NCBI GenBank assembly: GCA_020849375.1
Contig: JADLGJ010000036.1
Coordinates: forward strand, 1-34,986
Length of the DNA stretch: 34,986 bases
Reading direction: 5' to 3'
Source: Candidatus Omnitrophota bacterium
GTDB taxonomy: Bacteria; Omnitrophota; Gorgyraeia; Zapsychrales; JANLHA01
Made by a program: the position numbers and the translations under genes. Under the pieces are notes generated by a model, which had not been told where the DNA came from, searched no databases, and saw only the letters and a list, made by a program, of their open reading frames with translations. This document shows, one piece after another, positions 544-20,173 of this stretch (positions are counted from its first letter, which is position 1; each line of letters opens with the position of its first letter).

Positions 544-1032
544 CTAATATGTTTTTTTACCTTTGCTCCGGCCCCATTGATGCAATAAGGCCGCATTTTC
601 TTTTTTCAACAAACCGCCGCAAACATGGACAGAACTTTTTCCGGCCGACTTCATTTTCTTGGCAGAAATAAAAAGCTCATTGAATCCCGCCAATTTTGCA
701 TCTTGGATCGATGCGCCATAGTAGACCGTTTTTAATCCCGCCCAATGACAGGCGCTAAAACACATCGGGCACGGTTCACACGTCGAATAGATCACACAAT
801 CTTTCAATGAAACCATTTTAAGCTTACGGCAGGCACTGCGGATCGCTTGCACTTCAGCGTGGGCGGTAATATCTGTTGTTTGCCAAACGCGGTTGTGCTC
901 AACAGCGACCACAACCCCTTTTCTGACAATGCAAGCACCAAAAGGTGCCTGGCCGTTCGCGGTTCCCGCAAGGGCTTTCTCCATGGCTAAACGCATAAAA
1001 CCTTCGTCGCCTTTTTTAAATAACGTGCTCAT
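544..1032 (-). CDS. Nucleoside/guanine deaminase-like cytidine-deaminase-fold zinc hydrolase
   Basis: HAEVQAIR and CEPCPMC zinc motifs; overall resembles the GuaD/TadA family (HAEV-x-AIR-x-AC ... YSTCEPCPMCFSACHWAGLKTVYYGAS). Confidence 0.88.
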   Translation of the reverse strand: MSTLFKKGDEGFMRLAMEKALAGTANGQAPFGACIVRKGVVVAVEHNRVWQTTDITAHAEVQAIRSACRKLKMVSLKDCVIYSTCEPCPMCFSACHWAGLKTVYYGASIQDAKLAGFNELFISAKKMKSAGKSSVHVCGGLLKKENAALLHQWGRSKGKKTY

Positions 1033-4000
1033 TTGACGACGATCTTACGGCCCGCGGCTCCCTGTTGGGATTCCGCAGGAATATTATTCTTAGAATAGAG
1101 CTCTTTGAGCTTGGCTTCGATCACTTCTTTCTCGTCCAAAAGATTGTAATAATCTTTTTCCGAAGCCCCGGCTTCATCTAAAAGTTTCGCGATCTGCGCT
1201 TCGTTCTGTTTGACATTGTCTTCCGCTGCAGACAATTTTTCGACGAGATAACGGTTCTTCTCCTGTAATTCTTTAACGATCGCATCCGAATCCGTACCAT
1301 TGGCCTGGCGCTTAACATCTTCCAGCTTTTTACTCAGGAAAATATTCTCCTGCTGCGCAGATGATAATGACAAAGTGGCCTTATCCATTTCTTTGAGCAA
1401 TCCTTCGACCTTGCTTTGTTTATCGATCAAAGCTGCAGCTTTCTGCTGCGATTCTTTTTCCAAAGCGCTGATCTTCTCGTCGCGCGTTTTGATCTCCGCC
1501 GCGATACGCTGTGCGACCGATGCATTGGTCTTTTCTAAAAGGTCATTGAGAGCACGTATCTTTTCTTCTAACGGCGCGGCCGCAGCAGCGATCTGTTGTA
1601 CCGCATCTTTCTGCAACTGCGCACTTTGTGCTGTGAGCTGCTGGATCTTATCTTGCAGCGATTTTTGTTCCTGCGCTAAACGCTGATCAATAGAACTTTC
1701 AGAAGCGCGAAGCTTATCCTGCAACTGCGCATTCTTTTGTGCCCAATTTTTATTATCCTGCACAACCGCCGCAAAATCCGCAGCGCCTTTTTGATTAGCT
1801 TGCGTTAAAGCGTTGATCTTTTGTTCCTGGCCGGCCAACTGCTTTTGCAGGTCAGCCGCGGCTTTATCTTTTTCGGCTAACTTTTGCGAATCGGCATCAA
1901 CGGTCTTTTTAACATCCGTTTGCAAAGCCTGGATCTGATCGAGCAAAGGTTGTTTAGCGGCCGCAACCTGGCCGGGAACAGAATCGCGGACATTCTTGAT
2001 CTCACCGATCAACGTATTGATCTTTTCCTGCAACGGCCCTTTAGCGGCACTGACCTGAACATCAACGCTCTTTGCACTTTCAGCAAGCTGGGCTTGTAAG
2101 TTCTTGATATTATCTTGCAGCGGGGCTAAAGCTTTCGCCAACTTCTCATTGCTGGAACGTTCGCTGTCTGCCAGTTTTTGTTGATATTGCGCGATCGTTT
2201 TTTCATACGCGGCTTTTGTTTCTTCCAAACGTGCCGTCCAGGACTTGTCGGCAGTTTTTGTTTTCTCGGCAAGGGCACGGGCTTGGGCATCAAGATCCGC
2301 ACGTGCGCTGGCCACTGCCTGGCTTGCTTCTGCACGGGCGGCTTCAAGCTGCGTTTTTTGAAGGGCAAGGTTTTGATCAAACTTAGCCGCCTGCGCTTGC
2401 GCTGCCGCTAACATTTTAGCGGCCTCTGCTCTTTCCTGCTGGAGACGAACGATCGCATTATCCTTTTGCTCGAGCGTTGCTTGCGCGGTATCTAACGTCT
2501 TACGTACCGACGTGCTTTGTTCTTTTTCAGCCGCAACAGCTTGTGCCAAACGGGCCGCTGACGCAGCGTCATTGGCTTGAATTTGTTTTTCTAAACTGTT
2601 GATCTTCTCGGCGAGCGGAGCTTTCGCCAATTCAATATTCTTGGCTTGTTGGTCCTGCGCCGCCTTCATTTGATTTTTCAAAGTATTGATCTGGTCGTTC
2701 AACGGCTTACTGGCGTCCGCGACTTTAACTGAGACTAAGTTCTGCGCTTCGCGTAACTGCGCCTGCAATCCTTCGATCTGCTTTAAAAGCGGGGCCTTCG
2801 CTTCTTCGACCTTTGGTGCGACCGCATCTCGACTGGCCTGCACTTCGCGGTCCAAAGACTGCAAAGCTTTTTCCAGCGGAGCACGCGCCGTGTTGATCCG
2901 ATCATGAACCGAAGCCTCGGCCGCTTTCACCTGTTCATTCAAACTTTTAATCTTTTCTTCCTGCGCTTTTTGCGCTTGCGCAACTTTTTGATCTGACAAA
3001 GCTGCTTGCTCGCTCAATTGTTTTTGTAAAGCTTTGATCTGGTTTTCCAGCGGGAGCTTGGCCTGGTCAATACGCGCCGGCAAAACTTGCTCTGCCGCCT
3101 TTAACCGCAACTCCAACTCCTGGAGGTCATCTGTCAGGGATTTGCGGGCCTCGGCGATCTTTTGCGGGACCGCATCTTCAGCGTTCTTCAAGCGGACCTG
3201 AAGGTCTTCAATTTGTTTTAGCAACGGTGCCTTTGCTTCATTGACCTTTTGCGGCTGAGCATCTTGCTGAGCTTTCATTTGAACCTGCAGATTCTCGATC
3301 TGCTTTTGCAAAGGAGCCCTGGCTTCTTCAATTTGTCCGGGAACACTCGCCTGCCCGGCTTGCAAACGCGCTTCCAGCGAAGAGATCTTCTTGGCAAGTT
3401 CTACATTTTCACTATTCTTACTCGCCAAGTTTTGCGCCGTTTTGTTCTTCTCGGCGGACAAAGCGGCAAGAGCAGCATCTTTTTGATCTAATAAATTCTT
3501 TGTTTCTTTTAATTGAGCGCGTGCCTGACTCAAATCTTGTTCCAGCGGAGCTTTAGCTTTCGCGGATTCCGTTGAAACAGCACCTTGTGCTTCTTTCAAA
3601 CTTGCCTGTAAAGCCGCGATCTGATCCTGCAAAGGTTTGGTCGCTTGTTTGACCTGCTCCTGGGCCTGCGTATCACTGGACTTCATTTTCTCAACCAAAA
3701 AATTGATCTTCTCGAGAAGAGGCGCCTTGGCTTGTTCGATCTGGGCGGGAACGCCTTCCTGCCCGGCTTTTAATCTTGCTTCAAGCTCATCAATTTGCTT
3801 TTGCAATGGCGCTGTCGCTGCGGCGATCTGCTCGGGCTGTTTGCTTTGCGCAACCTTCAACTTCTGTTGCAAATCAGCGATCTGTCCAGCCTGCTGATCA
3901 CCGGCATTTTTTAGTTTTTGTTGAAGGTCGGTGATCTGCGCAAGAAGCGGTTTGCGCGCTTCTTCAATTTGTCCGGGAACACTCGCCTGTCCGGCTTGCA

Positions 4001-6281
4001 GACGGGCTTCTAATTCTTTGATCTTATTTTCTAACGGAGCTTTCTCAGCGGCGATCTGTTCAGGTTGTTTGCTTTGGGCAACTTTCAATTTTTGCTGAAG
4101 GTCAGTAACCTGCGCTAGCAAGGGTTTGCGCGCTTCTTCAATATGTCCGGGAACGCTCGCCTCTCCGGCTTGCAGACGGGCTTCTAGTTCTTTGATCTTA
4201 TTTTCTAAGGGAGCTTTCTCAGCGGCGATCTGCTCAGGTTGCTTGCTTTGTGCAACCTTCAACTTTTGCTGTAATTCAGCAATTTGCCCGGACTGCTGAT
4301 CCCCTGCATTTTTTATTTTCTGTTGCAGGTCCGTGATCTGGGCAAGAAGCGGTTTGCGCGCTTCTTCAATTTGTCCGGGAACGCTCGCCTGTCCAGCCTG
4401 TAATCTTAATTCGAGTTCGTCAATCTTCTTTTGTAATGGCGCTGTCGCTGCGGCGATCTGGTCGGGTTGTTTACTTTGAGCAACTTTCAACTTCTGCTGG
4501 AGGTCAGTAACCTGCGCTAGCAAGGGTTTGCGCGCTTCTTCGATTTGTCCGGGAACGCTCGCCTGCCCGGCTTGCAATCTCGATTCAAGTTCAGCGATCT
4601 GAGCCACAAGCGGTTTGCGGGCTTGTTCAACTTGCGCGGACGTAGCATCCTGGTTGGCTTTCAATTGATCAGCAAGTTCAAAGATCTTATTTGCCAATGG
4701 AGCTTTAGCTTGCTCGACCTGGGTGGCAACGCTATCCTGGATAACTTTTTGTTGAGCTTCTAATTCCTTGATCCGGAGCTGTAATGGTGTCGTGGCTTCA
4801 GCGATCTTTTCCGACGGGTCAACTTCCTGCACCTTCGGCCGGCTTTCCCATTCTTTCAAACGGGCTTCCAGGCGGGCCACATCAGTTTTAAGCGTAGCCT
4901 GGGCTTCTAAAGAAACTTTCAGCGCGGCTTCTTTTTCGCCGGAGTTATCGGCTTTTGTTTTGACCTGCTGTTCCAGAGACTGGATACGGTCTAAAAGCGG
5001 CGTTTTGGCAGCGGCAATTTTTTCGGCCGCAGCTTTATCGGACTGCGCCAGGCGCTCCTGAAGCTCGGTGACGCGGGCATCAACTAATTTTGCCGCCATC
5101 AATTTGTCTTTTTGGCCGGCAAGTTCTTTCGTTAAAGAATCCACCCGCTGTTGCAAAAGCCGGTTCTGGTCGTTGGCGGCGGAAAGGGTCGCGGTCTTTT
5201 CTTTTAAAGCACTGATCTCATTTTCAAGGGGACGCTTGGCTTCGATCGCCTTTTGTAACTCAGCACCCGTTTGGGCAAGATCATCTTTTATGGCTCTTAA
5301 TTTCTTTTCCCAATTTTTATCCAGAGATGAAGACTGTTGATCGGCATGGCTTTGCGCATCTTTAAGCTGTTTTTGCAAATCATTGATCTGCTCGCGTAAA
5401 GTTTTTTGCGCCTCTTCGATCTCAGAAGCCATCATCGCCTTTGTTTCACGCAACTGCGCTTCTAAGGACTGCACTTTTTCTTCAAGAGGCTTCTTGACCT
5501 CTTCAATGCTTGGCCCAGCCGGCTCTTTTTTAGCCTTGCTCTTATCTTTAGCGGCGAGCTGGGCTTGGGCTAAACTTTTCTCAAGTTTTACCTTTTCCTC
5601 GTTCAAAGCATCGATCTTAGTATTGCCGTCTTTAATAAACGACCCCTTGATCTGCAAATCCTGCTTCAAGCTGGCGAGCTGTTGACGCAATTCTTCAACT
5701 TGTGCACTTTGTGCACCGCCACTCTTCTTTTGCGAATACTTCTTCTCGGCTTCCTGTAAGCGGTCCTGAAGTTTGATCAATTCCTGCTTCAGCGCAGTGA
5801 CCTGGCTATTATCAGTGGGTTTTTTTGCGGCCTGGGCCTTGGCGGCGGCTAACTCGCTTTGTAAATTCGCGATCTGCTCTTTAAGAGCGGCGGTGGCGTT
5901 ATCAATCTCTTCTTGCGGAACAACGGCAGGCTTTTGTAATTCCGCCGTCAAGTTCGCGACTTTTTCGTTGAGAGCGACTTTTTCTTTGGCGAGGACCGCT
6001 TGCCGTTCTTTTGCGGCGGACAGGTCCTGTTCAAGATTTGTTATCTTTTGTTGATCGGCTACGCTCGGCCCCTGCGAGGGTGCGGGTGCCGGTGCGGGCG
6101 ACTGGCTCAATTTTTCTTTTAGTTCTTTATTCTCGGCCACGATCGCATCATAACGCTGGATCAGCATGTCCAATTTTTGTGTGACGTTCGCCGCTTTCGG
6201 AGGCGCCGACTCTTGGGCCCAACTGTTAGTCCCGGAAAGCAAAAGTGTGGCGACAATTAAATAGAGAAAATGAACACGCAT
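1029..6281 (-). CDS. 1750-aa exported giant coiled-coil repeat protein
   Basis: N-terminal signal peptide (MRVHFLYLIVATLLLSGTNSWA-QES), Pro/Ala linker (PAPAPAPSQGPS), then E/Q/K/A-rich helical sequence with many xxxAxxPLxxxIxxLxxxL repeats. AAGGAG-type RBS upstream of ATG 6281; ATGA overlap with the downstream deaminase. Confidence 0.92.
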   Translation of the reverse strand: MRVHFLYLIVATLLLSGTNSWAQESAPPKAANVTQKLDMLIQRYDAIVAENKELKEKLSQSPAPAPAPSQGPSVADQQKITNLEQDLSAAKERQAVLAKEKVALNEKVANLTAELQKPAVVPQEEIDNATAALKEQIANLQSELAAAKAQAAKKPTDNSQVTALKQELIKLQDRLQEAEKKYSQKKSGGAQSAQVEELRQQLASLKQDLQIKGSFIKDGNTKIDALNEEKVKLEKSLAQAQLAAKDKSKAKKEPAGPSIEEVKKPLEEKVQSLEAQLRETKAMMASEIEEAQKTLREQINDLQKQLKDAQSHADQQSSSLDKNWEKKLRAIKDDLAQTGAELQKAIEAKRPLENEISALKEKTATLSAANDQNRLLQQRVDSLTKELAGQKDKLMAAKLVDARVTELQERLAQSDKAAAEKIAAAKTPLLDRIQSLEQQVKTKADNSGEKEAALKVSLEAQATLKTDVARLEARLKEWESRPKVQEVDPSEKIAEATTPLQLRIKELEAQQKVIQDSVATQVEQAKAPLANKIFELADQLKANQDATSAQVEQARKPLVAQIAELESRLQAGQASVPGQIEEARKPLLAQVTDLQQKLKVAQSKQPDQIAAATAPLQKKIDELELRLQAGQASVPGQIEEARKPLLAQITDLQQKIKNAGDQQSGQIAELQQKLKVAQSKQPEQIAAEKAPLENKIKELEARLQAGEASVPGHIEEARKPLLAQVTDLQQKLKVAQSKQPEQIAAEKAPLENKIKELEARLQAGQASVPGQIEEARKPLLAQITDLQQKLKNAGDQQAGQIADLQQKLKVAQSKQPEQIAAATAPLQKQIDELEARLKAGQEGVPAQIEQAKAPLLEKINFLVEKMKSSDTQAQEQVKQATKPLQDQIAALQASLKEAQGAVSTESAKAKAPLEQDLSQARAQLKETKNLLDQKDAALAALSAEKNKTAQNLASKNSENVELAKKISSLEARLQAGQASVPGQIEEARAPLQKQIENLQVQMKAQQDAQPQKVNEAKAPLLKQIEDLQVRLKNAEDAVPQKIAEARKSLTDDLQELELRLKAAEQVLPARIDQAKLPLENQIKALQKQLSEQAALSDQKVAQAQKAQEEKIKSLNEQVKAAEASVHDRINTARAPLEKALQSLDREVQASRDAVAPKVEEAKAPLLKQIEGLQAQLREAQNLVSVKVADASKPLNDQINTLKNQMKAAQDQQAKNIELAKAPLAEKINSLEKQIQANDAASAARLAQAVAAEKEQSTSVRKTLDTAQATLEQKDNAIVRLQQERAEAAKMLAAAQAQAAKFDQNLALQKTQLEAARAEASQAVASARADLDAQARALAEKTKTADKSWTARLEETKAAYEKTIAQYQQKLADSERSSNEKLAKALAPLQDNIKNLQAQLAESAKSVDVQVSAAKGPLQEKINTLIGEIKNVRDSVPGQVAAAKQPLLDQIQALQTDVKKTVDADSQKLAEKDKAAADLQKQLAGQEQKINALTQANQKGAADFAAVVQDNKNWAQKNAQLQDKLRASESSIDQRLAQEQKSLQDKIQQLTAQSAQLQKDAVQQIAAAAAPLEEKIRALNDLLEKTNASVAQRIAAEIKTRDEKISALEKESQQKAAALIDKQSKVEGLLKEMDKATLSLSSAQQENIFLSKKLEDVKRQANGTDSDAIVKELQEKNRYLVEKLSAAEDNVKQNEAQIAKLLDEAGASEKDYYNLLDEKEVIEAKLKELYSKNNIPAESQQGAAGRKIVVK
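2550..4805 (-). repeat. Uninterrupted protein repeat block: 23 units, 20 of 29 aa (87 nt), two of 47 aa, one of 78 aa
   Basis: Manual alignment from IAEATTPL... to ...ANDAASAAR: 20x29 + 2x47 + 78 = 752 residues = 2256 nt, matching coordinates 2550-4805 exactly. Higher-order repeats: 58 aa (gacgggcttc at 4001 and 4175, 174 nt apart) and 134 aa (gtgatctg at 3931 and 4333, 402 nt apart). Confidence 0.92.
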
Positions 6282-6453: not shown

Positions 6454-7161
6454 ATGGGGTCGGATGTTTGGCGCAATTTTATCAATAAGCCAAAGCTAAG
6501 TAATTACATCACGAACATGGCGGAAGTCGGTTACAGCCATTACGGGCCGACGTTCGCTGTCGCCGGAACGCTGGGTTCGCTCAACGCCGTGATCCTCGTC
6601 CACAATATTTGCGCGGAGGTCACGTCCCAAAAAAGCAAAGTGTCCCACTTTATGGATTGGTTCGCTTTCCGGCCGGCGCATTATGTGATGGGGAACTTTT
6701 CCGGTATGGACCTGACCATGGCTTCAAAATTTTCAATTGCCCCCAATCATTCTCACGAACACAACACGCTATTTATTGACGCCAATCGTTTTTCCGAAAT
6801 GAAATCGGCTTTGACAGTTATCAAGAATTCTTGGGAAGAGGCCCTCTTCGTAGCGGCAAAAGACGGAAAAACGATCAACACCGCGAGCCTGTTCGCCGAA
6901 TTTAAAGAGCTTAGGATCGTCGCCGGCGCAACAGAACGCTTAAAAACGATGAATTATTGGGAACCGGGGGAATACAACGTCAAGGTCCGGGTGACGACGG
7001 AAAACCCAAAACAATTCTTTGATATCAAGAGAGATTTTGTCCTGACGGACGCTGATACCCAAAAGCTGCTCAACAATGTGCCGCTCATTATCTCCAACAT
7101 CTGCCAGCAGCCGCATATGAACTATGCCTGCACAACGCCCGCGCTCATCATCAAAAAATAA
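6454..7161 (+). CDS. Hypothetical protein, unknown family
   Basis: 235-aa ORF, Shine-Dalgarno-like ggggg upstream, possible single hydrophobic segment (FAVAGTLGSLNAVILVHNIC) and a soluble C-terminal part (EPGEYNVKVRVTTENPKQFFDIKRDFVL). Not recognised. Confidence 0.75.
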   Translation: MGSDVWRNFINKPKLSNYITNMAEVGYSHYGPTFAVAGTLGSLNAVILVHNICAEVTSQKSKVSHFMDWFAFRPAHYVMGNFSGMDLTMASKFSIAPNHSHEHNTLFIDANRFSEMKSALTVIKNSWEEALFVAAKDGKTINTASLFAEFKELRIVAGATERLKTMNYWEPGEYNVKVRVTTENPKQFFDIKRDFVLTDADTQKLLNNVPLIISNICQQPHMNYACTTPALIIKK

Positions 7162-8026: not shown

Positions 8027-9904
8027 TCACTTTAATTTTAATGATGATTTGCCGGTGATCTCCATCTTCTGCAAATACGCCTCTTTGTAGTTCGGGTCCA
8101 GGCGTAAGGCCTGATCAAAATCAGCGATCGCCAAATCATACTTGCCGCTTTGAGAATACGCAAGCCCACGGTTAAAATAAACTGACGGGTTCGTCGGGTC
8201 CAAACGGATCGACCGCGAAAAATCATAAACCGCTTTGTCGAACTTACCCTGCTTTGCAAAAATTACCGCACGGTTGTTCGTCGCATTGATCGAGCGAGGA
8301 TTAAACCTGACCGCGAAATTAAAATCTGCAAGGGCAGCAGGTTCATTATCGCTCAAAAAATACGCTGTGCCACGATTTTCATAAGCTTCGGCATAGCCGG
8401 GCAAGATCTTCAAAACCTTTGTATAATCTGCGATAGCTAACGGGTACTTGCCGATCTCCCGGTAAAGGTTGCCGCGGTCAAAATAAGCGCCCCAGAAGGC
8501 CGGGGTCGTTTCGATCGATCTCGTGTATTCCGCGATGGCATCCTGATAGCGCCCCGCTTCTTTAAAGATCATGGCCAAATTACTGCGCGCATAGGGGTCG
8601 TTCTTCAGCTCGATCGCTTTACGGTAATCCGCAACGGCCGCCAACAACTCGCCTTTCTCATGGTATTCCGCCCCGCGGTGGACATAAGCCATTGCTAAAT
8701 TGGGCGAATGTTTAATGACCGCACTCCACAGCGTAGACGCATTGCGCCACAGCCGGCACTGCATAAAAGTTTTGGCTGTCAGAAGAAACCCTAAGCAGAC
8801 CAACAACACGAGGGCGATCTTCTTATTCTTGTCTTCCTCCAGAAATTTCGCGAACCAAAAACCGATGAGCGCACAAAACCCGACACTCGGTAAATACATA
8901 AAACGGTCGGAAACCGGATTAATATTCTCAAGATCATCGAACCGAAAAAGAAAAAAAATGGAAAGAAAATAAAACAGCACTGAAAATACAAAAAGTTTGT
9001 TCCGGCGGAAATAAAACACGAGGGCCACAACAAAAAGAAAAAGCAAACCCGAGGCGATGAATTCCAGATTGGCCCACGACAGCGGTTTCGGATATTGATA
9101 AAAAACGATCAACTCTCCGGGGAAAATAAACTTACGGATATAAAAAACACCGCACCACATCCACAACATCATCGCTTCGCCGACGGAATTCCAGGGAACA
9201 CGCACATTATAGGCATAGGTAATACCTGCGATAGGGATGACAATAATGAAATAAAGGACTTTTTCGAAAATGATACTCAGCGACCACGTGCGCCCCATCC
9301 ACCAATCACACAACAACAGGATCAGTGGCAAACTTAAAGCCATCGGCTTAGCAAGCACGCTGAGAAAACAACACATCACGCTGACCCAATAGTAGCGGCG
9401 GTCAGAACTTTTGACATAGCGCCAGTACTGATGGACCGCTAACATATAGAAGAACGCGTAAAGGACGTCTTTACGTTCCGTGACCCAAGCGACGGATTCA
9501 ACGTGCAGAGGATGAATGCCAAAGAAAAAAGCCCCGATCGCCGCGGCCACTTCCGACAAACCCATCTTCCTAAAAAAGAAAAAAACAAGAGCCGTCACGG
9601 CTAAATGCAGCAACAAATTATCGAGATGATAAACAAAAGGATTGTAACCGAGAAAATTATACTCAAGGGCAAAGGAGAACGTCGTGAGCGGAATATAGGT
9701 GGTATTGATGATGTCCAAAAACATCGCGCGGATATTTTCCGGTGACAAAGAGCGCAGGGTAGGGTTTTCCAGCAAATGCCCGGGGTCATCGTTCTTGATA
9801 AAACCATTGAACAAAGACGGCGAGTACGCGACCGCGACCAGCGCGAGTACAACCCAGAAAAGAAAATTTTTCAAGCGATGCGGCATTTTCAAAGAATGGC
9901 CCAA
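8027..9904 (-). CDS. TPR-containing membrane protein, TMTC/PMT-like (putative glycosyltransferase)
   Basis: Multi-TM N-terminus with FNGFIKNDDPGHLLENPTLRSLSPENI and HPLHVESVAWVTERKDVLYAFFY (typical of TMTC-type proteins), followed by at least five TPRs (e.g. AYFDRGNLYREIGKYPLAIADYTKVLKILPGY). Confidence 0.85.
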   Translation of the reverse strand: MGHSLKMPHRLKNFLFWVVLALVAVAYSPSLFNGFIKNDDPGHLLENPTLRSLSPENIRAMFLDIINTTYIPLTTFSFALEYNFLGYNPFVYHLDNLLLHLAVTALVFFFFRKMGLSEVAAAIGAFFFGIHPLHVESVAWVTERKDVLYAFFYMLAVHQYWRYVKSSDRRYYWVSVMCCFLSVLAKPMALSLPLILLLCDWWMGRTWSLSIIFEKVLYFIIVIPIAGITYAYNVRVPWNSVGEAMMLWMWCGVFYIRKFIFPGELIVFYQYPKPLSWANLEFIASGLLFLFVVALVFYFRRNKLFVFSVLFYFLSIFFLFRFDDLENINPVSDRFMYLPSVGFCALIGFWFAKFLEEDKNKKIALVLLVCLGFLLTAKTFMQCRLWRNASTLWSAVIKHSPNLAMAYVHRGAEYHEKGELLAAVADYRKAIELKNDPYARSNLAMIFKEAGRYQDAIAEYTRSIETTPAFWGAYFDRGNLYREIGKYPLAIADYTKVLKILPGYAEAYENRGTAYFLSDNEPAALADFNFAVRFNPRSINATNNRAVIFAKQGKFDKAVYDFSRSIRLDPTNPSVYFNRGLAYSQSGKYDLAIADFDQALRLDPNYKEAYLQKMEITGKSSLKLK

Positions 9905-11227: not shown

Positions 11228-11301
11228 TAGCCCCAACGGGATTTGAACCCGTGCTTGAAGACTGAGAATCTCCCGTCCTGACCAGGCTAGACGATGGGGC
11301 C
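11228..11301 (-). tRNA. tRNA-Glu(CTC)
   Basis: Reverse complement GGCCCCATCGTCTAGCCTGGTCAGGACGGGAGATTCTCAGTCTTCAAGCACGGGTTCAAATCCCGTTGGGGCTA: 7-bp acceptor (G1:T72 wobble), anticodon stem GGAGA/TCTTC, loop TTCTCAG, T arm CGGGTTCAAATCCCG. CCA not encoded. Confidence 0.92.
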
Positions 11302-11478: not shown

Positions 11479-12666
11479 GTGTCCACATATATCGGGATCG
11501 GTTTTAGCAGGGACCCTGACGCCGCCAAGGCCGCGCAGGATGCCGCCGACCAAGCGAAACAAAACCTCCATGCCAGCAGCATTGATATCGCGATCGTCCT
11601 GAACACTTCCCACTACAATCCGGCTGATTTCCTCCCCATCATTTACAATCAACTCAAAAAAACGCGCCTGATCGGTTCCTCGACCGCCGCGATCCTCCTC
11701 GGAGAAAGGATCGAAGAACGCGGCATCGCGATCCTTTTGCTGTACTCAGATGATATCCGCTTTGAAACGGGCGGCGTGGAAAACATGCACCTGCAAGACC
11801 TGGCCGCAGCAGGATCACAACTAGCGGCCAGCTGCATCAGCAGCGATTACGGACAAGACCACCGAAAACTTTTATTATTTTTTGCGGACGGCCTCATCCA
11901 AGACCTTTCACGCTTTATTTCCGGGATGAGCAAAACTTTAAAAGGAACATTCCCCGTCATCGGCGCCGGAAGCAGCGACAACTTCCAATTTAAAAAAACT
12001 CATCAATACTTCAATAACACCGTCCTTACTTTTGGCGCTTGCGGCGTCCTTCTCGGCGGACGGCTGCAGGTCGGCACCAGTTGCCGGCATGGCTGGCGCC
12101 CCCTGGGCAAACCGCGTTTCGTCAATCAATTCGAGAACAATCTCATTAAAGAGATAGACCATAAACCGGCGGCGATGATCTATCAGGAATATTTCGAGGA
12201 CACCACGGAAACGCTGAAAGCGAGCAGCTTAGCGCATCTCAATGCCCGCTATCCTCTCGGGACTCCCCTCGGGGCTGGCCGGGAATATCTTTTACGGAAC
12301 ATTATCAACACTCTCGAGGACGACAGCATTGTCCTTCAGGATTCGATCCCCGATGGAAAACCGATCCATTTGATGATCGGCAACAAAGAATCCTGCCTGC
12401 AAGCCGCTGAACTCGCGGCACTCGAGGTCAAATCACAATTACAAGGACGGACGCCCAAATTGATCTTTGTTTTTGAATCAATGGCGCGTTATCGCATCCT
12501 GGGGCGCTCCGCGAACACAGAATTGCAGAATATCCGAAAGATCCTGGGCCCGGAGGTCCCTCTCTACGGCATGTATTCATTCGGAGAGATCTTTACTCAT
12601 TCGTCGGCCAATGGGCAGGAAACACTTTTACAGAACGAGAGTATTATCATCACGGCAATATGTTAA
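11479..12666 (+). CDS. FIST domain signal-transduction sensor protein
   Basis: GTG start after gaggag RBS. FIST_N-like segment (IDIAIVLNTSHYNPADFLPIIYNQLKKTRLIGSSTAAILL) and FIST_C-like segment (PKLIFVFESMARYRILGRSANTELQNIRKILGPEVPLYGMYSFGEI). Confidence 0.87.
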   Translation: MSTYIGIGFSRDPDAAKAAQDAADQAKQNLHASSIDIAIVLNTSHYNPADFLPIIYNQLKKTRLIGSSTAAILLGERIEERGIAILLLYSDDIRFETGGVENMHLQDLAAAGSQLAASCISSDYGQDHRKLLLFFADGLIQDLSRFISGMSKTLKGTFPVIGAGSSDNFQFKKTHQYFNNTVLTFGACGVLLGGRLQVGTSCRHGWRPLGKPRFVNQFENNLIKEIDHKPAAMIYQEYFEDTTETLKASSLAHLNARYPLGTPLGAGREYLLRNIINTLEDDSIVLQDSIPDGKPIHLMIGNKESCLQAAELAALEVKSQLQGRTPKLIFVFESMARYRILGRSANTELQNIRKILGPEVPLYGMYSFGEIFTHSSANGQETLLQNESIIITAIC

Positions 12667-12678
12667 AATAATTTTCTT

Positions 12679-14172
12679 ATGGATAACCCGATCGAAATGA
12701 TCCTTGAATTCTTTATCCTTTTTCTGCTCATCGGCGGAGGAGTGCTCAGTTATTTCTTCTACAACGCTGTTCAGGAGATCAAAGTCCTGCGCAACGCATT
12801 AGGAAAACTCAGTGATTCTTTTGCTGAGCTTGACGAACAAGCGAAAATGATCGTCAAAACCGACCTCGAGTTGAACAAAACCCAGGAAGAACTCGATAAA
12901 CGGCTTAACGGGCTTGACGCACTGCAAAAAACATCGCGCCTCATCAGCACAACTCTCGACGAGAACGAAGTGTTCCGCCGGCTGAACCAATTTCCGCTCA
13001 ACGAACTCGGGTTTGAAAAGATCCTCGTTTATACTCTCGATGAAAATAACCAGCTGTTTCCGCGCATCTATTTAGGTTACAGCAAGGCCGAACATACAGA
13101 CATCACCACCAAGGTGGGAACCAACGCCAAACTCATGGAACTTCTTGGCGATGGGAATATGGTCTCGTCTTATAAAAGCGCACCGGAACTGCAAACCGAG
13201 ATCTTTGAAATGACGAATGTCCGCCATTTTGTACTGACCCCGATCCTGGCGCAGGACAAAATGATCGGGATCATCTTTGTCGGGAACCCGGGCGATGCGT
13301 TTGCGGTCACGGAAGGCGATACTGAGCTTATTTCCATTCTTGCCGACCAAATCGGTCAGGCCGTCGAGAATGCCCGGCTTTTTGAACAGGCCTTCCGCGC
13401 ACAACAGGAATCAGAAGCCAAGGTTCAGGAGCGCACCAAACAACTTTCGCGCGCCTTGACAGACGTCCAGGAGGTCAGCCGCAACAAAAGCGAATTTATT
13501 TCCGCCGTCTCTCACGAACTGCGGACTCCTTTGACATCCATCAAAGGCTACGCGGCTCTGCTCATCGCCGGGCAGATCGGGGATATTCCCGACAAGGTCA
13601 AAGACCGGCTCGAGAAGATCAATAAACATTCCGACAACCTGGTCAAATTGATCAACGATCTTTTGGACATCTCCAAGATCGAGTCGGGCAAGATCGAGAT
13701 GAAGCTGACGCCGCATCAAATTCCGCCGATGGTGGAAAATGTGCACGACCTTTTGACGCCGCAGATGAAAGAGAAAAATATAAACTTTATCAATGAAGTT
13801 CCGGCCAGCTGTCCTCCCCTGCCTACCGACATGAACCAGATCGAAAGAGTCTTCATCAACCTGATCAATAATGCGATCAAATTCACGCCGGTCGAGGGCA
13901 CTATCAAGGTCAGCGCGGTCGTAGACACTGACGAAGTGACTTTTGCGGTCTCTGACAGCGGTATCGGTATTAAAAAAGAAGATCTTCCGAGATTATTCAA
14001 CGAATTTTACCGCATCGAGAATGAGATCAATCAGAATGTCAAAGGGACCGGGCTTGGCTTAGCGCTCTGCAAAAAGATCATTGAGGCGCATAAAGGCCGG
14101 ATCTGGATCGAGAGTGAATTTGAGCACGGCGCAACGTTTTATTTCACCTTGCCCCGAAACATAAAAAAATAA
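12679..14172 (+). CDS. GAF-domain sensor histidine kinase
   Basis: N-terminal TM, coiled coil, GAF-like region, HisKA SHELRTPLTSIKGYAALL, HATPase N/G boxes (NLINNAIKF, DSGIGI, GTGLGLALCKKI). Confidence 0.95.
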   Translation: MDNPIEMILEFFILFLLIGGGVLSYFFYNAVQEIKVLRNALGKLSDSFAELDEQAKMIVKTDLELNKTQEELDKRLNGLDALQKTSRLISTTLDENEVFRRLNQFPLNELGFEKILVYTLDENNQLFPRIYLGYSKAEHTDITTKVGTNAKLMELLGDGNMVSSYKSAPELQTEIFEMTNVRHFVLTPILAQDKMIGIIFVGNPGDAFAVTEGDTELISILADQIGQAVENARLFEQAFRAQQESEAKVQERTKQLSRALTDVQEVSRNKSEFISAVSHELRTPLTSIKGYAALLIAGQIGDIPDKVKDRLEKINKHSDNLVKLINDLLDISKIESGKIEMKLTPHQIPPMVENVHDLLTPQMKEKNINFINEVPASCPPLPTDMNQIERVFINLINNAIKFTPVEGTIKVSAVVDTDEVTFAVSDSGIGIKKEDLPRLFNEFYRIENEINQNVKGTGLGLALCKKIIEAHKGRIWIESEFEHGATFYFTLPRNIKK

Positions 14173-14220
14173 AGGCGCCCTTTAGCATCTTGACGGTTGG
14201 CATGCTAAACTTAACTAGCT

Positions 14221-15153
14221 ATGAACAAAGAACGCATCCTCACAATTGACGACGACCCGGACATCCTCGATGTCCTCGACCTGACCCTGTCCGAATTTTA
14301 TGAAGTGATCCAGGCTCCCAACGGACAAGAAGGACTCAAGATGGTCCAGACCAAAAATCCTAATTTGGTCATCTGCGACTATATGATGCCGATCATGACC
14401 GGCAAAGAATTCTGCAAGGCCATGAAAAAGGATATTCTCCTCGAACACATTCCCGTGATCATGTTGACCGGCAAAGGCGAGACCAAAGACATGGTCGTCG
14501 GCATTGAAGCCGGCGCCGATGACTATCTCGTCAAACCTTTCGAACCGAGCATGCTTTTGGCCCGTATCAAAATGATCCTGCGCCGCACGAGCCGCAGCCT
14601 TGACGCGAACCCTCTCACCCATTTGCCCGGCAACACTTCGATCATGGAAGAATTACAGAACAAGATCGCCAGCGGCAAAACGTTCGCAGTCGGTTACGCC
14701 GACCTCGATAAATTTAAGATCTACAACGATAAATATGGTTTTGAAAAAGGCGATGAGGTCATCAAAGAACTCGCCCGGCTCTTAGTCCGCGTTGTTCGTT
14801 CCATTGGCGGGCCGGACGCCTTTATCGGGCATATCGGCGGGGACGATTTTGTTTTCGTAACAACGGACGAACTTGTCGAAGACGTTTGTAAAGGGGTCAT
14901 TACGGAATTCGATAAAACCGCACCACAATTTTATAACGAAGAAGACCGCACCGCAGGTTACATCATGGGCAAGGACCGGCTCGGCAACGAGATCAAGACC
15001 GGCCTGCTCTCCATCTCCATCGGCATTGTCTCAAATGCCAACCAACCTATCACCCACGTCGCGCAGATCAGTGAAAAAGGCGCCGAACTCAAAAAATACG
15101 CCAAAAGCTTCCAAGAAAGCATTTACGTGCGAGACCAGCGCAAAGCGAAGTAG
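14221..15153 (+). CDS. Response regulator with C-terminal GGDEF-type domain (GGDDF variant)
   Basis: Receiver domain (DDDPDILDVLD, LVICDYMMPIMTG, VIMLTGKGE, DDYLVKPF), then DPLTHLPGN-like start, YADLDKFKIYNDKYGFEKGDEV and GHIGGDDFVFV. Confidence 0.93.
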   Translation: MNKERILTIDDDPDILDVLDLTLSEFYEVIQAPNGQEGLKMVQTKNPNLVICDYMMPIMTGKEFCKAMKKDILLEHIPVIMLTGKGETKDMVVGIEAGADDYLVKPFEPSMLLARIKMILRRTSRSLDANPLTHLPGNTSIMEELQNKIASGKTFAVGYADLDKFKIYNDKYGFEKGDEVIKELARLLVRVVRSIGGPDAFIGHIGGDDFVFVTTDELVEDVCKGVITEFDKTAPQFYNEEDRTAGYIMGKDRLGNEIKTGLLSISIGIVSNANQPITHVAQISEKGAELKKYAKSFQESIYVRDQRKAK

Positions 15154-20092: not shown

Positions 20093-20173
20093 TGCGCGGG
20101 GAGGGACTCGAACCCTCATGGGTTACCCCACACGCCCCTCAAACGTGCGCGTCTACCATTTCGCCACCCGCGC
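20093..20173 (-). tRNA. tRNA-Leu(GAG)
   Basis: Reverse complement GCGCGGGTGGCGAAATGGTAGACGCGCACGTTTGAGGGGCGTGTGGGGTAACCCATGAGGGTTCGAGTCCCTCCCCGCGCA: acceptor GCGCGGG/CCCGCGC, loop TTGAGGG, long variable arm TGGG-GTAA-CCCA, T arm GAGGGTTCGAGTCCCTC. Confidence 0.95.

Follow-up and report, generated by a model that had tools for sequence, protein, structure and literature searches.

A 29-residue, proline-marked coiled-coil repeat in a giant exported protein of Omnitrophota

What does a bacterium build with an exported protein of 1750 residues, in which a 29-residue unit recurs through a block of 752 residues? The protein, P0001, is encoded in a 34,986-nucleotide stretch of DNA from a Candidatus Omnitrophota bacterium; this whole stretch is referred to below as the window.

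A repeat of two hendecads and one heptad

The gene and the parts of its product are located as follows, with residue numbers of P0001 in brackets.

1029..6281, minus strand: P0001, giant exported repeat protein, open reading frame of 1750 aa
6216..6281, minus strand: Sec-type signal peptide MRVHFLYLIVATLLLSGTNSWA, read directly from the sequence
6108..6185, minus strand: conserved N-terminal motif TxKxDxLLxxYExL (aa 33-58), present near the N-terminus of six 29-type proteins
5421..5507, minus strand: outlying unit upstream of the block (aa 259-287, IEEVKKPL...)
2550..4805, minus strand: 29-residue repeat block of 23 units (aa 493-1244)
3741..4544, minus strand: tandem duplication of 134 aa (aa 580-713 / 714-847), 84% identical in protein and 80% in DNA
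4230..4370, minus strand: 47-residue unit, 29+18 (aa 638-684)
3828..3968, minus strand: 47-residue unit, 29+18 (aa 772-818)
3333..3566, minus strand: 78-residue unit (aa 906-983), equal in length to the main period of families f4 and f7
1881..2141, minus strand: three more 29-residue units (aa 1381-1467)
1506..1592, minus strand: last unit (aa 1564-1592, IAAAAAPL...)
1083..1172, minus strand: conserved C-terminal motif KDYYNLLDEK (aa about 1704-1733), present in all seven C-termini compared; its family form is KDYFxxLDENxxL

The gene is immediately preceded by AAGGAG, which resembles a ribosome-binding site. As read from the sequence, the signal peptide is likely to be cleaved after SWA and has no lipobox cysteine. 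P0001 contains no cysteine at all, and its 262 Lys and Arg residues face 256 Asp and Glu. A second copy was searched for in the same genome, and none was found.

A parse anchored on "PL" agreed with the division of the block into 23 units given in a preliminary description of this DNA: 20 units are exactly 29 aa long, and the rest measure 47, 47 and 78 (20 × 29 + 172 = 752). The 29-residue period was also borne out by an unbiased periodicity analysis, a check named beforehand. Within the block, identity autocorrelation gave z = 22.9 at lag 58, z = 18.8 at lag 134 and z = 16.6 at lag 29; the observed values at lags 29 and 58 (0.284 and 0.353) compare with a maximum of 0.145 over 100 shuffles and lie 17-23 SD above chance. 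P0001 contains 25 copies of the Pro-Leu cassette motif; 200 shuffled sequences contained 0.07 on average and at most 2. Units are indeed present outside the block, where about eight had been counted, but "PL" anchors number seven, at aa 265, 351, 428, 1387, 1416, 1445 and 1570.

The regularity of the block in P0001 owes part to the 134-aa duplication; most units have diverged, with a mean identity of 35% over the 27 units compared. The extra 18 residues of each 47-residue unit fit one hendecad and one heptad. The proposed period of 3.625 residues per turn was found in runs that stay in register, but over the whole block the hydrophobic peak splits into 3.611 and 3.636, as is to be expected when the 18 extra residues (11+7) of each 47-mer shift the phase.

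The hydrophobic positions had been placed at 1, 4, 8, 12, 15, 19, 23 and 26. All but one of these stand: position 23 is hydrophobic in none of the 23 units and in 2% of 325 family units. The core is formed by positions 1 (Ile/Val), 4 (Ala, 76%), 8 (Leu), 12 (Ile), 15 (Leu), 19 (Leu), 22 (weak) and 26 (Ile/Leu/Val), position 22 being mostly Ala or Gly in P0001 and weakly hydrophobic in the family (24%). The resulting spacings, 3-4-4 / 3-4 / 3-4-4, therefore describe a hendecad (1-11), a heptad (12-18) and a second hendecad (19-29), so that the earlier composition of 11+11+7 and its ratio of 29/8 = 3.625 were correct, while the order is hendecad-heptad-hendecad and not hendecad-hendecad-heptad. 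The core positions span about 90 degrees, which makes for a narrow hydrophobic stripe. Proline at position 7 is near-invariant, as described (21 of 23 units); proline at position 27, which had been called frequent, is found in only 10 of 23. The two prolines flank the stripe on opposite sides, at an angle of 186 degrees to each other, and any kinks that they introduce might therefore cancel. In the charge profile, the strongest harmonic was at 7.25 residues and the 29/3 harmonic was weak.

Relatives, register and gene neighbourhood

Relatives were searched for in 54 genomes, the window's own included, and matches were found in 21. Across 285 genomes of the phylum, a nine-unit profile at 1e-10 matched 17, only one of which belongs to another order. 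In a profile made from the whole length of the protein, no stretch was conserved enough to scan the collection with. When 84,980 species genomes were scanned with a pattern, eight loci were confirmed, all in Omnitrophota. The repeat is thus likely to be restricted to this phylum, within the limited sensitivity of the scans. Spread by phages was rejected, as no confirmed relative was found among viral contigs. Several of the relatives' contigs end inside the giant gene (L043, L044/L045, L034/L048, L046 and L053), and metagenome assemblies therefore probably under-report the family.

Complete proteins of the family range from 1604 to 5134 aa, contain either no cysteine or one, and have signal-like N-termini. 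Those with the 29-residue period (29-type) have short N- and C-terminal motifs in common and measure 1604-2276 aa, and the complete genes of other families of the same order encode 3115-5134 aa. The longest run examined here, that of L053, comprises 61 consecutive units (1769 aa), and its hydrophobicity peaks at exactly 3.6250 (power 267); its units have a mean identity of 35%, and adjacent pairs are no closer than distant ones. A further relative, L052, stays in register over 957 aa, and one register is common to 17 segments of five proteins, gap-free across 261 columns. The register of L053 and L052 has thus been kept while the sequence drifted, and this speaks for a structural constraint.

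The proline-marked double hendecad, with its Pro-Leu, is also found in families f4 and f7, where it recurs every 78 aa (22 + 8 heptads), and the hydrophobic peaks fall at 3.540-3.559, near 78/22 (about 3.545). Spacings between adjacent anchors in both types follow 22+7n (n = 1 or 8): 77% of those in the 29-type and 72% of those in the 78-type equal 1 mod 7, and the remainder mostly equal 2.

Other giant coils of the phylum were seen alongside these. L065 (3538-8799) and L067 (2037-7703) encode giant exported coils with a weak 78-residue lag and few Pro-Leu cassettes, possibly degenerate members of the family. G092 and G047, which gave weak profile matches, were set aside: they belong to a different family of giant coiled coils, in which the C-terminal domain is conserved and the 29-residue spacing is missing. 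A second giant exported coiled-coil family, at L047 (4628-8137), L064 (3940-11949) and L066 (6248-14050), ends in a conserved, non-helical-looking C-terminal domain, FELFSNGxxKxxPxFxGTxDxxLxxLxxxCFxxxLPFPxFP; by eye it resembles the C-termini of TonB and TolA, and in L064 and L066 it had no Pfam match.

The neighbours of P0001 and the RNA genes of the window are:

544..1032, minus strand: TadA-like deaminase, whose ATG overlaps the stop of P0001 (ATGA)
6454..7161, plus strand: divergent gene of 235 aa, function unassigned; within family f1 it occurs nowhere but beside the giant gene, in three genomes including the window's
11228-11301, minus strand: tRNA-Glu (CTC)
20093-20173, minus strand: tRNA-Leu (GAG)

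The ATGA overlap makes translational coupling of P0001 and the deaminase likely, and in L036, L040 and L046, too, a TadA-like deaminase gene adjoins the giant gene or is close to it. Envelope-acting neighbours were found elsewhere, namely a D-Ala-D-Ala carboxypeptidase and a DsbA-like thioredoxin in L032, and a WecA-like transferase and a PEP-CTERM-type ATPase in L038. Since neighbours vary between families, genomic context carries little weight. No structured RNA was found at the P0001 locus, the two tRNAs being the only ones in the window.

Some further arrangements were observed. Directly before the giant gene of f4 and f7 genomes, and often overlapping it, is the gene for a small exported protein (IININYKYKIAFTDL...) whose C-terminal part is a coil (L039 1275-2246, L042 5008-5931, L048 48-788 and L049 4776-5588); its N-terminal domain had no Pfam match. 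The window carries, in succession at 11479-15153, genes for a FIST sensor protein, a histidine kinase and a response regulator with a GGDEF-like domain; a kinase and FIST lie near the giant gene in L033, and a kinase, a regulator and rpe in L044. A membrane protein with many C-terminal TPR repeats is encoded at 8027-9904 of the window, and the one adjoining the giant gene in L033 (5920-7263) is similar to it by eye.

Predicted structure and possible roles

AlphaFold2 modelled aa 984-1244 as one unbroken helix (residues 2-260) running through all prolines, with a mean pLDDT of 79. For aa 493-912 the mean pLDDT was 62, and the model was helical past nearly all prolines, with a sole, weak break at aa 708-713 (ASVPGH). 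Single chains were modelled, and the low pTM values of the two models (0.28 and 0.22) are uninformative for a lone helix. That the repeat region of P0001 is a long helix is well supported, and the helix is predicted to be continuous over the chain. A straight helix has about 3.63 residues per turn, heptads twist to the left and hendecads slightly to the right (PMC4786415). In the 29/8 rod the opposite twists of the hendecads and the heptad would nearly cancel, and it should therefore be nearly straight. With its 3-4 spacings, and with hydrophobic peaks in the range of 3.5-3.7, the repeat agrees in these respects with a long alpha-helical coiled coil. The original suggestion of a long helical rod near the period of an undistorted helix is thus upheld, both by the 3.625 peak over the 61 units of L053 and by the AlphaFold2 helix of aa 984-1244. 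The stripe and the residues of the core suggest that such helices may pair; a dimer, its parallel orientation and the formation of filaments are likewise inferred.

We consider the chances about even that helical rods of P0001, straight and probably paired, form a filament in the envelope or on the surface. P0001 would then be an exported structural protein. Its unit combines a double hendecad of 22 residues, marked by proline (positions 19-29 and 1-11), with a heptad (12-18) and makes 8 turns per 29 residues. Chains would pair side by side, probably as parallel dimers, with Ile at heptad position a, Leu at d and Ala in the hendecad core. The paired rod would be nearly straight, a single chain reaching about 260 nm if fully extended, and a periplasmic or cell-surface filament or mesh may arise as chains join through their constant ends and the 43-angstrom repeat. 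By gain or loss of whole units the rod could become longer or shorter, the hydrophobic stripe staying in register. Fully extended rods of 260 nm in P0001, and up to 762 nm in relatives, far exceed the width of the periplasm; a chain of 260 nm is too long to cross it and would therefore have to run along the envelope, be folded back or point outward. As the ends are conserved and the length of the rod varies strongly, a filament fits better than a spacer of fixed length.

In the other families, eight heptads between cassettes would give 78 residues and a mildly left-handed coil. Tentatively, this may be extended to an exported filament system of the one Omnitrophota order, in which the supercoil is set in modular fashion by the whole number of heptads that follow each double hendecad (22+7n), with constant ends and freely evolving length. 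If true, one heptad yields a straight rod (29 residues, 3.625) and eight a mildly left-handed coil (78, about 3.545), and the system would constitute a new class of structural filament in bacteria.

A possible but doubtful reading is that P0001 is an extracellular fibre or coat protein for attachment to other cells, its rod crossing the outer membrane and projecting outward. The signal peptide and a rod longer than any periplasm agree with this, as do the coat and adhesion roles proposed for giant Omnitrophota ORFs of over 20 kb (PMC10066038). Those ORFs, however, exceed 20 kb and many encode predicted transmembrane helices, while the P0001 gene measures 5.25 kb and the repeat region is its sole domain; a beta-barrel, lipobox, surface anchor or adhesion domain was looked for in P0001, and none was found.

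We think it unlikely that P0001 is a periplasmic tether or spacer that joins the outer membrane to the inner membrane or the cell wall, its rod being folded at proline/glycine sites into a bundle of shorter helices. VPG(Q/H) sites are frequent, the sole predicted break lies at one of them, and the separate family of L047, L064 and L066 carries a conserved end domain that looks non-helical; but the model of aa 984-1244 is one helix through all its prolines, phase is held past prolines over as much as 1769 aa, a regularity that hairpins would not require, and length varies several-fold among relatives.

The 29-residue period could be a mere by-product of recent tandem duplication in a generic low-complexity coiled coil, given the 84% identity of the 134-aa duplication and the chance that common registers were inherited. 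This appears highly improbable, as the register is common to proteins of different families and the 29-residue peak is missing in four other giant coils of the phylum, and recent duplication as the whole explanation was rejected on the diverged, in-register units of L053. A lipid- or membrane-binding role is hardly credible. P0001 would then be an amphipathic helix like those of apolipoproteins, which have 22-residue repeats punctuated by proline that are similar to the cassette. PF01442 matched all 17 segments and PDB apolipoprotein A-IV was also matched, each weakly, but the P0001 block scored 49 against a cut-off of 90 bits, its reversed sequence 38.9, and the stripe is narrow where lipid-binding class A helices have a broad face.

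Coiled coils with the period of an unstrained alpha-helix are expected to be straight. To our knowledge, long natural coiled coils in perfect register at this period are rare. With up to 61 in-register units and two cassette spacings, the family lends itself to a natural experiment in which the effects of hendecads, heptads and prolines on supercoil can be compared. It is also an expressible target for studying the envelope of an uncultured phylum, most of whose large proteins still await explanation.

Comparison with known coiled-coil families

The coiled-coil repeat is real, conserved and apparently uncatalogued. It had not been recognised as a named repeat family, and in line with this no Pfam or NCBIfam family describes the 29-mer, several helical families giving weak summed scores; no account of this particular repeat was found in the literature library searched. 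The myosin-, SMC-, apolipoprotein-, Baculo_PEP_C- and SF-assemblin-like matches were not taken as evidence of family membership, being either under curated cut-offs or merely sums of weak stretches. The block exceeds the cut-offs of Baculo_PEP_C and SF-assemblin as sums, no single stretch qualifying for either. For Baculo_PEP_C (PF04513) it scored 44.9 against 38 bits; the reversed block still scored 32.8 here and 38.9 for the apolipoprotein family, so the signal is partly one of composition, and the Baculo_PEP_C score is judged largely compositional. For PF01442, L053 alone reached 94.5, as a sum. NCBIfam models of bacterial and archaeal SMC gave 53-57 bits against cut-offs of 567-729, confined to the coil, and SMC/Rad50 proteins, which require ATPase heads and a hinge, were rejected.

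Apolipoprotein A1, A4 and E repeats are proline-punctuated 22-residue double hendecads. P0001 differs from them in its narrow stripe and in the one heptad between cassettes. The myosin tail is matched by profile A3 in the PDB (3.7e-15), and the P0001 block scores 23.8 for PF01576 against a cut-off of 38.1. Myosin skips are isolated within a heptad rod, and proline is not repeated. Such a skip residue makes four heptads a 29-residue motif, and skips matter for filament assembly (PMC5958240). A myosin-like charge stagger was rejected for P0001, since the 29/3 harmonic does not dominate its charge profile.

Scy and FilP of Streptomyces are cytoplasmic, whereas P0001 has a signal peptide. These actinobacterial proteins, with DivIVA-like N-terminal similarity, are long, hendecad-rich coiled coils with alanine-rich cores (PMC9858780), and no Pfam match to a DivIVA-like N-terminal motif was found in P0001. 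Within the phylum, giant ORFs of over 20 kb are common, some of them with adhesion domains (PMC10066038). P0001 is likewise large and of unclear function, but its gene is shorter and has no domain beyond the repeat region.

The nearest described repeat of equal length is that of SF-assemblin / beta-giardin (PF06705), of eukaryotic striated rootlet fibres. SF-assemblin consists of consecutive 29-residue motifs of four heptads and a skip residue behind a non-helical head and forms 2-nm protofilaments (PMC8435291). The summed score of the P0001 block was 32.2 bits, the cut-off being 30.6, with no stretch passing alone, and the reversed block had no match listed. Its spacing of 3-4-4/3-4/3-4-4 is not that of four heptads and one skip residue. 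In P0001, a long bacterial protein that is exported, the 29 residues are made up of two hendecads and a heptad, and one proline is near-invariant.
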